Positions 8,080 through 37,417 of a stretch of DNA of 37,417 nucleotides are shown one piece after another. The position numbers and the translations under genes are program-made. The DNA comes from Burkholderiales bacterium (GTDB lineage: Bacteria > Pseudomonadota > Gammaproteobacteria > Burkholderiales > Burkholderiaceae_C), in assembly GCA_016192425.1 (NCBI GenBank), contig JACPUE010000019.1, positions 1 through 37,417 of the forward strand, given 5' to 3'. How positions within the stretch are numbered: the first letter of the stretch is position 1; every line of letters begins with the position of its first letter. Below the pieces are notes generated by a model, which was given only the letters and a program-made list of their open reading frames with translations, was not told the origin of the DNA and did not search any database.

Positions 8080-12324
<4,245 letters not shown>

Positions 12325-33939: not shown

Positions 33940-33981
33940 GCTCATATCTTCCCATCACAACGCACTTACGCGGAGTACCCC

Positions 33982-35112
33982 ATGCCCGGCCTTCTGCCTG
34001 ACATCGATCCCGACGGCTTGCTCGAATTCTCGGTCGTCTATACCGACCGCGCGCTCAACCACATGTCCAAGCGCTTCACCGGCGTCATGCAGGACATCCT
34101 GGCCACGCTCAAGGAGGTGTACCACGCCCACACCGCCGTGCTGGTGCCCGGCAGCGGCACCTTCGGCATGGAGGCCGTGGCGCGCCAGTTCGCCAACAAG
34201 CAAAAGGTGCTGATCGTGCGCAACGGCTGGTTCAGCTTCCGTTGGAGCCAGATTTTTGACTCCGACACCGGCCTGGGCGGCGGCGCCGTGGTCTGCAAGG
34301 CCCGCAAGCAGGGCGATGGCCCGCAGGCGCCCTGGGCGCCGTGCCCGGCCGAGGAAGTGGCCGCCACCATCCGCGCCGAGCAGCCCAAGGTGGTGTTCGC
34401 GCCGCACGTGGAAACGGCCAGCGGCATCATCCTGAGCGACGACTACATCCGCACCGTGAGCGCCGCCGCGCACGAGGTGGGCGCGCTGTTCGTGCTGGAC
34501 TGCATCGCCTCCGGCGCCATGTGGGTGGACATGCAGGCCACCGGGGTGGACGTGCTGATCTCGGCCCCGCAAAAGGGCTGGAGCGGCTCGCCCTGCTGCG
34601 CCATGGTGATGCTCAGCGAGCGCGCGCGCCAAGCCATCGACGGCACGACGAGCAGCAGCTTCGCGTGCGACCTGAAGAAGTGGATGCAGATCGCCGAAGG
34701 CTACGAAAAAGGCCAGCACGCCTACCACACCACCATGCCCACCGACGCGCTGGTGCGCCTGCGCGACGTGATGCTGGAGACGCGCGCCTACGGCTTCGAG
34801 AAGGTGCGCCAGGAGCAGATCGAACTGGGTGCCCAGGTGCGCGCGCTGCTGGAAAGCAAGGGCTTCCCCAGCGTGGCCGCCGAGGGCTGGAAGGCGCCCG
34901 GCGTGGTGGTCAGCTACACCACGGACCCCGGCATCCAGAACGCCAGCAAGTTCGCCGCCGTGGGCCTGCAGACGGCCTCGGGCGTGCCGCTGCAGTGCGA
35001 CGAGGGGCCGGACTTCAAGAGCTTCCGCATCGGCCTGTTCGGGCTGGAGAAGTGGCACAACGTGGAGCGCACGGTGGGCCACCTGCGCTCGGCATTGGAT
35101 CAAATCGCCTGA
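33982..35112 (+). CDS. Class V PLP-dependent aminotransferase (serine/alanine-glyoxylate type)
   Basis: A 376-aa fold-type I aminotransferase. The phosphate-binding GSGTFGMEAVARQF is near residues 53-66, the PLP aspartate is in LFVLDCIASGAMWVD, and the Schiff-base lysine is K198 in SAPQKGWSG. The C-terminal domain ends FRIGLFGLEKWHNVERTV. Relatives use alanine or serine with glyoxylate or pyruvate. No pathway partner lies nearby, and the product is unknown. ATG 33982 has GGAG at 33972-33975; the open frame upstream overlaps araC. ogt follows after 13 bases. Confidence 0.92.
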   Translation: MPGLLPDIDPDGLLEFSVVYTDRALNHMSKRFTGVMQDILATLKEVYHAHTAVLVPGSGTFGMEAVARQFANKQKVLIVRNGWFSFRWSQIFDSDTGLGGGAVVCKARKQGDGPQAPWAPCPAEEVAATIRAEQPKVVFAPHVETASGIILSDDYIRTVSAAAHEVGALFVLDCIASGAMWVDMQATGVDVLISAPQKGWSGSPCCAMVMLSERARQAIDGTTSSSFACDLKKWMQIAEGYEKGQHAYHTTMPTDALVRLRDVMLETRAYGFEKVRQEQIELGAQVRALLESKGFPSVAAEGWKAPGVVVSYTTDPGIQNASKFAAVGLQTASGVPLQCDEGPDFKSFRIGLFGLEKWHNVERTVGHLRSALDQIA

Positions 35113-35125
35113 CCAGCTCCGGCCC

Positions 35126-35644
35126 ATGGCCTTGCTCGCGCGCCAGCTCTCCACCCCCTTGGGTGAGATGCTGGCCGCGGCCTCGCCCCAGGGCCTGTGC
35201 CTGCTCGAATTCGTGGGCCAGGGCGGCGTACAGCGCGAGCTGGCCCAGGTCGAGGCCGCGCGCGGCGGCCCGGTGCAGCCGGGCGACAGCGCGGTGCTGG
35301 CGCAGGCGGCGCAGGAACTCGCCGAATATTTCGCCGGGCAGCGCCAGCGCTTTGGCGTGCCGCTGGACCTGGTGGGCACCCCCTTCCAGCTCAGCGCCTG
35401 GCAGGCCCTGCTGGCTATCCCCTACGGGCAGACGCGCAGCTACGCCGAACAGGCCCGCGCCATCGCCCGCCCCAGCGCCACGCGCGCCGTCGCTGCAGCC
35501 AACGGGCAGAACAAGGTCTCCATCATCGTGCCCTGCCACCGCGTGATCGGCAGCGACGGCAGCCTCACCGGCTTTGGCGGCGGCCTGCCGCGCAAGCGCG
35601 CGCTGCTGGCGCTGGAGTCGCCGCAGGGGCGTGGCTTGTTTTAG
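35126..35644 (+). CDS. ogt: Methylated-DNA-[protein]-cysteine S-methyltransferase
   Basis: A 172-aa O6-alkylguanine-DNA alkyltransferase, a suicide repair protein. The active-site motif is IVPCHRVIG with acceptor Cys137. The helix-turn-helix region contains QLSAWQALLAIPYGQTRSYAE (from about residue 91), and the Arg finger lies in ATRAVAAANGQNK. Length fits Ogt rather than the two-domain Ada. No ribosome-binding site is clear before ATG 35126; it probably depends on translation of the aminotransferase 13 bases upstream. A remnant of cas1 follows 19 bases after the stop. Confidence 0.94.
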   Translation: MALLARQLSTPLGEMLAAASPQGLCLLEFVGQGGVQRELAQVEAARGGPVQPGDSAVLAQAAQELAEYFAGQRQRFGVPLDLVGTPFQLSAWQALLAIPYGQTRSYAEQARAIARPSATRAVAAANGQNKVSIIVPCHRVIGSDGSLTGFGGGLPRKRALLALESPQGRGLF

Positions 35645-35663
35645 GAAGAAGAGGAGGGTGGTG

Positions 35664-36071
35664 ATGGATGATCTGGCACCCACCGATCTCAAATCGGTAC
35701 TGCACTCCAAGCGTGCCAACATCTATTACCTGGAGCACTGCCGCGTGCTCGTCAACGGCGGCCGGGTGGAATATGTGACCGATGCAGGCAAGCGCAGCCT
35801 GTACTGGAACATCCCCATCGCCAACACCACCAGCGTCCTGCTGGGCACAGGCACCTCCATCACCCAGGCAGCGATGCGTGAGCTGGCTACAGAAGCTCCC
35901 CACTTTAGACTCGAAGCCCAGAAGTATGAATCCGTTCAGGCTGAACCTGTCAGAGCTCTTTCAGTGGCCCTTCGATATGCCCAAGGCAGGCAGTCTTGTT
36001 TTGCAAGTTTGAGTTCAGGTATCGAAAAGCAGAAGAGGTATTGGCATGCACTTTCCGGCGTATCGCGATAA
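35664..36071 (+). pseudogene. cas1: N-terminal fragment of type I-F CRISPR-associated Cas1
   Basis: The frame starts MDDLAPTDLKSVLHSKRANI and includes LEHCRVLVNGGRVEYVTD, YWNIPIANTTSVLLGTGTS and ITQAAMRELA, which I recognise as residues 1-75 of type I-F Cas1, the spacer-integration nuclease (about 320 aa when complete). Similarity ends near 35888. The metal-binding residues and catalytic domain are absent. The remaining 60 codons read through repeat-like DNA to a stop at 36069-36071. A good GGAGGG ribosome-binding site five bases before ATG 35664 is kept. No cas2-3, csy genes or repeats are in the window. The frame overlaps the GGDEF gene start by 26 bases. Confidence 0.85.
35895..35985. repeat. 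Degenerate REP-like palindrome at the cas1 break
   Basis: The stretch contains CCGTTCAGGCTGAACCTGTC (35930-35949) and, further on, GGCCCTTCGATATGCCCAAG. These look like decayed arms of the widespread proteobacterial CTGAGCCTGTCGAAGG palindrome; the comparison is from memory. It follows directly after the point where Cas1 similarity stops. Confidence 0.5.
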
Positions 36072-37417
36072 GAATGAATGGCTTGCAGGTGCGTTGTCGC
36101 TGTGGCGTGTGTTGTCGCGGTGCTGGCATGATCCATTGGCTTCGCCCGAAGATTCTGCGCACTACCGGCATCGACAATTCCTGGCAGTGGTGCAGCAGTT
36201 GCCGCTGGCAAGTTTGGCAACGTATGGAGTGATCCCAGCTGGTTTTTATGCTTCCTGGGGTGTGGCCAATTGGTGGGTGTTGGCCGGTTGGTCGTTGTGC
36301 TTGCTGATGATCGCGACGGTCAATATCGCAATCTGGTTCCGTTATGTGCACCGTCCACGACCGGGATTCGTCAGCAAAGCAACGTCGGCTCTGCTGTCGC
36401 TGGATCTTGGATTGGCTGCGCTCATGTACGCCATGCTTGCGGGCTACTTGTTTGGCATCTTGGCCGATGGGCCGCCGCGCGTGGTTCTGACCGGCGTAGT
36501 GGCTGCCTTTATCGCGGCGGGCACCTGGATGTTTGCGCCGCTGCCTTTGGCTGCGATTTTCTGGGCACAAGGTTTTTGCATCGGCATGGCGGGTTCCCTG
36601 CTGTTCTTCACTGCAGATGGGTATGGCTTGCTAGCGGCGCTATCGCTGTTGTACGGGGCGTTTCTGGTGGGAACCACCTTGGTGACCTCACACCGGTTCG
36701 TGGATATGCTTAAAGCTGAGAGAGAACTTGAGCGCCAGCATGAGGTGGTCAGCCTGCTGCTGCGCGATTTTGAAGATAACGCCAGCGATTGGCTTTGGGA
36801 GACGGACTACTTGGGGCGCTTGTCCCATGTTTCCGCGCGTCTTGCGGAGTGTTTCAACATCCCTGCATCCCGTTTAAAAGACCGTACGCTGGTGGACGTG
36901 TTGCGCCTGCTTGGTGCAGATCAAGGTGAGCCTGCGGTTTTGCTGGCGCGGCTGGAGTCACGACTGAGGGCGCAGCAATCATTTACGGAAGTCATCTCGG
37001 GTGTGGTGGATGGGCAGCAGCGGTGGTGGTCGGTCTCTGGAAAGCCCCTGTTGGACGCGGATGCGGCCTTCGTCGGTTGGCGCGGCGTGGGCAGCGATGT
37101 CACTGCGGCCCGCGAGCATGAGCGTGAAATGGAGCGATTGGCGATGAACGACAGCCTGACGGGGCTTGCCAATCGGTATTGTTTCAACCTGCGCTTGTCG
37201 CAGTTGTTGTCGGGGGATTCAGAGGGACAGCCTTGTACTCTGCTGATGCTTGATCTCGACAATTTCAAGATGGTGAATGACTCGCTGGGGCATGCTGCGG
37301 GCGATTCCCTGCTGCGTGAGGTGGCGTTGCGGCTGGCTGGCGAAGTGCCTCCTCAGGGATTGCTGGCCCGCTTGGGTGGTGACGAATTTGCAGTGCTGTT
37401 GCCAGGTGTCTTGGGCG
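36046..37417 (+). CDS. Membrane PAS-GGDEF protein, putative diguanylate cyclase (3' end beyond window)
   Basis: An open frame of 457 codons without a stop. About six hydrophobic segments span residues ~50-220 ([39 protein letters not shown] and others). A PAS-like region follows ([19 protein letters not shown]). The GGDEF domain begins at [11 protein letters not shown] and has [20 protein letters not shown] and the active-site GGDEF. Such enzymes make cyclic di-GMP. The inhibitory RxxD site is not present five residues before GGDEF. An EAL domain could follow outside the window. ATG 36046 has AGAGG seven bases upstream and overlaps the cas1 remnant. Its codon use looks less GC-rich than the preceding genes. 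Confidence 0.9.

Follow-up and report, generated by a model that had tools for sequence, protein, structure and literature searches.

A cas1 remnant beside ogt as the probable scar of a lost type I-F CRISPR system in a Burkholderiales genome

Introduction

How does the start of a type I-F cas1 come to stand by itself between ogt and a GGDEF gene? The question is raised by a 135-codon open reading frame in the 37,417-nucleotide stretch of DNA analyzed here (the window), which covers positions 1 to 37,417 of contig JACPUE010000019.1 in assembly GCA_016192425.1 of a Burkholderiales bacterium. The initial annotation offered two answers: the scar of a lost I-F system, or an N-terminal Cas1 domain retained for a new use. 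A literature search for Simplicispira and CRISPR returned no paper with either term in its title or abstract. We compared the locus with the other 25 genomes of a 26-genome set from its genus, probably Simplicispira, and propose, with a probability of about 0.9, that 35664-36071 is a pseudogene scar of a lost type I-F system, left by ordinary CRISPR turnover.

A Cas1f amino terminus that ends after codon 75

The frame lies on the forward strand, running from an ATG at 35664 to a stop codon at 36069-36071. Directly before the ATG is a purine-rich stretch, GAAGAAGAGGAGGGTGGTG (35645-35663, forward strand), a leader in which the ribosome-binding site noted earlier is plausible and which resembles the sequence upstream of cas1f in the nearest relative, genome G017. 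Codons 1 to 75 (35664-35888, forward strand) are the 5' remnant of a type I-F cas1, as evidenced by two kinds of protein search. Residues 12 to 77 of the frame match positions 1 to 66 of the 307 in the type I-F Cas1 profile TIGR03637 (E 3.7e-34), and residues 1 to 76 match the Cas1 sequences of PDB entries 9p11, 3god, and 8flj in phmmer (E about 5e-38). The profile score of 118.5 bits is below the family cut-off of 150, as expected because the frame holds a fragment, and there is no Pfam-A match for the 135-residue frame. These searches confirm what had been read from the letters alone, namely, that the frame opens with a real Cas1f N terminus, well above chance. A DNA search found 35645-36080 as a single copy in its own genome.

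The Cas1f homology ceases within one codon. Codon 76 already disagrees with the nearest relative, in which the protein has 334 residues, and the match ends at residue 76 or 77. The frame has the N-terminal homology of Cas1f and lacks the C-terminal catalytic domain of a full-length Cas1, including E189, H253, and D264 (numbered as in the relative), which we take to be catalytic in Cas1f.

The open frame beyond the break

The initial annotation described a break into unrelated DNA, and the remaining 3' extension (35889-36071, forward strand, stop codon included) bears this description out. From codon 76 on there is no alignment with G017, and a search of the 25 other genus genomes with the last 60 codons gave no match at E 1e-3. 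DNA 35880-36900 has no match in those genomes, in plasmids, or in phages; the sole match of the extension outside itself among the fetched loci is 37 bases of locus L052 (E 0.18), and the 22-mer across the junction is absent from viral contigs. Codons 76 to 135 show no coding signature: their GC content is 0.58, 0.50, and 0.42 at codon positions 1, 2, and 3, the last figure comparing with third-position values of 0.79 in the cas1 part and 0.66 in the GGDEF gene. The extension overlaps that next gene by 26 bases, and 155 of 2,000 dinucleotide shuffles leave its 60 codons free of stops. We read the 135-codon frame as a cas1 start running by chance into unrelated, noncoding open DNA.

Two repeat candidates were considered beyond the break. 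A decayed I-F repeat of the kind that follows the fragment in Halomonas korlensis reaches at best 14 of 28 bases in 35889-36045, a score equaled in 453 of 500 shuffles, and 17 bases in the GGDEF gene or the first 2,177 bases of the overlapping contig C62, where shuffles do equally well; we rejected this candidate. A decayed dispersed palindromic repeat has a site at 35969 with three mismatches; the window holds two sites in total, a count equaled in 8 of 100 shuffles, and this candidate is not supported. An exact copy of the palindromic repeat is absent from 75 loci. No deletion end point was identified.

A full-length cas1f at the corresponding site of the nearest relative

Evidence for what may once have lain here comes from G017, which carries a full-length cas1f directly 3' of ogt in the same layout, with 94% DNA identity over window positions 33971-35887. 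A truncated form where a relative holds the intact gene, within shared ogt-cas1f synteny, is what one would look for in a decayed remnant. Over cas1f codons 1 to 75 (35664-35888) the two genomes differ at 13 sites, all synonymous and none nonsynonymous. The neighboring ogt, compared over 173 codons with the stop counted, differs synonymously at 17 codons and nonsynonymously at 11. Outgroups G003, G022, and G001 assign only a few of the 13 synonymous changes to the window branch, and because of this a recent loss fits the pattern equally well. The all-synonymous pattern is therefore what one would see after a recent loss and also under selection on the fragment, and it favors neither.

The same site seems to be eroding in the relative too, at a less advanced stage. 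Its Cas2-3 covers only profile positions 1 to 232 of 1,110, with homology to about residue 239 to 249, and ends at 263 residues; the contig stops about 90 bases away from the break in cas2-3. No Csy1 was found in this genome, nor any I-F repeat with one pattern at up to 3 mismatches. On the contigs concerned (C138, 1-884, and the end of C115 of G017; loci L011 and L074), where cas2-3 is cut near residue 240 to 250, the other flank ends in what, judged by eye, resembles a toxin gene of the RelE/HigB type together with an insertion sequence.

In the genus as a whole, a cas1f match occurs in 8 of the 26 genomes, that is, in 7 of the 25 others. All seven matches stop at residue 76 of the window frame, while their own frames run to 365 to 424 codons, and no short-frame form occurs in the 25. 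Csy1 was found in 4 of the 25; G014 and G024, like G017, have cas1f and no Csy1, but they are only 64% and 67% complete. Another carrier is Simplicispira hankyongi (G003, NZ_QXJC01000007.1). Its complete I-F locus lies in the same neighborhood, without ogt, in the order cas1, Cas2-3f (full, 1191.5 bits), Csy1, Csy2, Csy3, Cas6f, and array; about 25 kb beyond the locus there follow a second array, a gene related to the small gene discussed below (139 residues, 75% DNA identity), and the gene for a thiamine pyrophosphate (TPP) enzyme. On its left the locus is bordered by the same aminotransferase, with other genes after it. The stretch of S. hankyongi DNA examined, up to 19.5 kb, showed no ogt, and neither did those of the five further cas1f genomes besides G017. 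Since, in these stretches, ogt is seen near cas1f only in G017 among the seven, an ancestral position after ogt draws no support from the other six.

A variable site between ogt and a TPP-enzyme gene

The left flank, ogt (35126-35644, forward strand; O6-methylguanine-DNA methyltransferase, Pfam PF01035 and PF02870), is syntenic in G017 and in six genomes with no cas1f match. On the right, the frame runs into a PAS-GGDEF(-EAL) gene (36046-37417, forward strand; PF08448, PF00990, and PF00563) that extends past the end of the contig. The last 141 bases of the window (37277-37417) match one end of contig C62 base for base, and C62 carries the gene on into its EAL domain; the gene is split by the assembly. 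Farther along C62 lies a small gene and then, about 2.18 kb into the contig and on the opposite strand, the 3' end of the TPP-enzyme gene.

Comparing the ogt interval among relatives, as had been suggested, sets these genes in context. The distance between the ogt and TPP-enzyme matches is about 0.12 kb in G002, G006, and G008, 0.73 kb in G009, and 0.66 kb in G023; G021 carries both flanks on separate contigs. In the window's genome, about 3.8 kb separate the ogt stop codon from the TPP-enzyme gene (over contigs C14 and C62). Given the 0.12 to 0.73 kb in five relatives, the stretch between the two genes is a variable site. GC content within it is uneven: ogt has 0.737, the cas1 remnant 0.604, the GGDEF gene 0.585, and the extension 0.49. 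The N-terminal part of the GGDEF protein was found in 3 of 250 family genomes, its own included (E 1e-40), and viral contigs yielded no relative of it.

About 100 bases of C62 (locus L048, about 9741-9841), lying between the small gene and the TPP-enzyme gene, are a dispersed repeat. Among the matches listed, it has at least five copies in G021 (93 to 99% identity) and at least one in G020 (97%).

The rest of the genome

The initial annotation had also stated that nothing else of a CRISPR locus is visible. That holds for the type I-F parts sought: in this 68-contig draft, given as 99.99% complete, neither Csy1 nor Cas2-3f has a match, there is no further stretch of cas1f beyond the remnant, and a repeat search of the rest of the genome found no I-F array, the pattern, which does find arrays in the relatives' loci, having no match with up to 3 mismatches. 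Csy2, Csy3, and Cas6f are all present in S. hankyongi. The genome does carry CRISPR of another type. The sole Cas1 detected by Pfam profile is a Cas1c on contig C52 (G000; L161, 10300-19764), beside Cas3, Cas5c, Cas8c, Cas7, Cas4, and Cas2; inspection by eye shows repeats where the contig ends. This type I-C system looks complete, and the species is therefore not without CRISPR. A gene with a BRO-N domain lies between its cas7 and cas4.

Origin of the remnant

We propose that an ancestor would have carried a type I-F cas1, presumably with a whole I-F locus, directly 3' of ogt. The lineage of the window would then have lost everything from cas1 codon 76 on, by deletion or replacement and probably recently, and the break would now adjoin lower-GC DNA with the GGDEF-EAL gene and the small gene, followed by the conserved TPP-enzyme gene. 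What is left is probably without function. The initial suggestion, that an I-F system was lost from the interval bounded by ogt and the GGDEF gene, thus gains from the full-length cas1f at the same place in G017, from the I-F locus in the S. hankyongi neighborhood, even though no ogt was seen there, and from the negative searches for Csy1, Cas2-3f, and I-F repeats in the rest of this genome.

The other initial suggestion was that the N-terminal domain of Cas1 survives as a small protein put to a new use, such as a decoy Cas1 partner or a product translationally coupled to the GGDEF gene. An intact start codon and ribosome-binding region, 75 residues unchanged relative to G017, and the 26-base overlap with the GGDEF start would all suit such a protein, but beyond the unchanged residues the idea found no positive support. 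The last 60 codons lack a coding signature, no truncated form occurs in the 25 other genus genomes, and the only full Cas1 found in the genome is of type I-C, which is not a natural partner. We consider a new use very improbable and give slightly less credence still to a free Cas1f N-terminal domain that, ahead of and overlapping the GGDEF-EAL gene, interferes with Cas1 assembly or has another role. A chimeric assembly, in which the break at 35888 is an artifact and the real genome has a full cas1f, is similarly improbable. The assembly is a draft of 68 contigs, and the contig ends only 1.5 kb further on, at the 141-base overlap with another contig; nevertheless, C62 reaches the TPP-enzyme gene, and since five relatives have its match near ogt, the two sides of the break are parts of one locus. 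In the nearly complete genome, moreover, no other part of a Cas1f and no Cas2-3f, Csy1, or I-F repeat was found.

How the I-F system was lost is a separate matter. Foreign DNA with the GGDEF-EAL gene could have inserted into cas1, with the rest of the I-F system lost separately and not in one deletion, a course of events that is compatible with a scar. The GC content of the extension and the GGDEF gene, lower than that of ogt, and the rarity of the GGDEF N-terminal part among family genomes are consistent with an insertion. Yet the GC content of the remnant is close to that of the GGDEF gene, so composition does not separate cas1 from GGDEF DNA; no second stretch of cas1f turned up in the genome; and one deletion within a larger island, in which the GGDEF gene was already present, accounts for the same facts. 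We therefore regard an insertion as a tentative possibility only.

Read as a scar, the locus adds another case of type I-F loss; its value for measuring CRISPR turnover is modest, and it implies no new mechanism. Around one site in the genus, the stages of erosion can be laid side by side: a full locus in the neighborhood, cas1 with a cut cas2-3, the start of cas1 only, and an empty site.

Comparison with known systems

Residues 1 to 75 are those of an ordinary type I-F Cas1 (Cas1f; TIGR03637; PDB 3god, 9p11, and 8flj), whereas the other three quarters of the protein, including the residues taken as catalytic, are missing from the remnant. In a wider sample, made up of the best 80 of at least 543 confirmed Cas1f matches in genome contigs and hence of best matches and not random ones, 73 have frames of at least 300 residues, and among the remaining 7 there are 3 whose frames continue past the end of the stretch examined. 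One match (L094) has a stop within an otherwise long alignment, and another (L146) breaks 53 bases from its own contig end.

Like the window, H. korlensis (L139, 3001-3363) and Salinicola peritrichatus (L095, 3001-3390) hold truncated 5' ends of cas1f, encoding 111 and 114 residues; the next 2.9 kb or so downstream contains no more cas1 matches in either. Their break points are almost identical in codon position, and a single I-F-like repeat lies within about 2 and 20 bases after the fragment, respectively (agreeing with a genus repeat at 25 and 24 of 28 bases), as if a deletion had run from cas1 to the last repeat. The window remnant differs in that no such repeat trails it.

The locus also bears comparison with isolated and orphan cas loci, for which the passages on such loci in the survey by Zhang and Ye (2017, PMC5294841) name nonfunctional remnants as one explanation. 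As described there, these loci have cas sequence without a companion CRISPR array, as does the window; they differ in that the survey admitted only loci with three or more cas genes, whereas the window keeps a fragment of a single gene.
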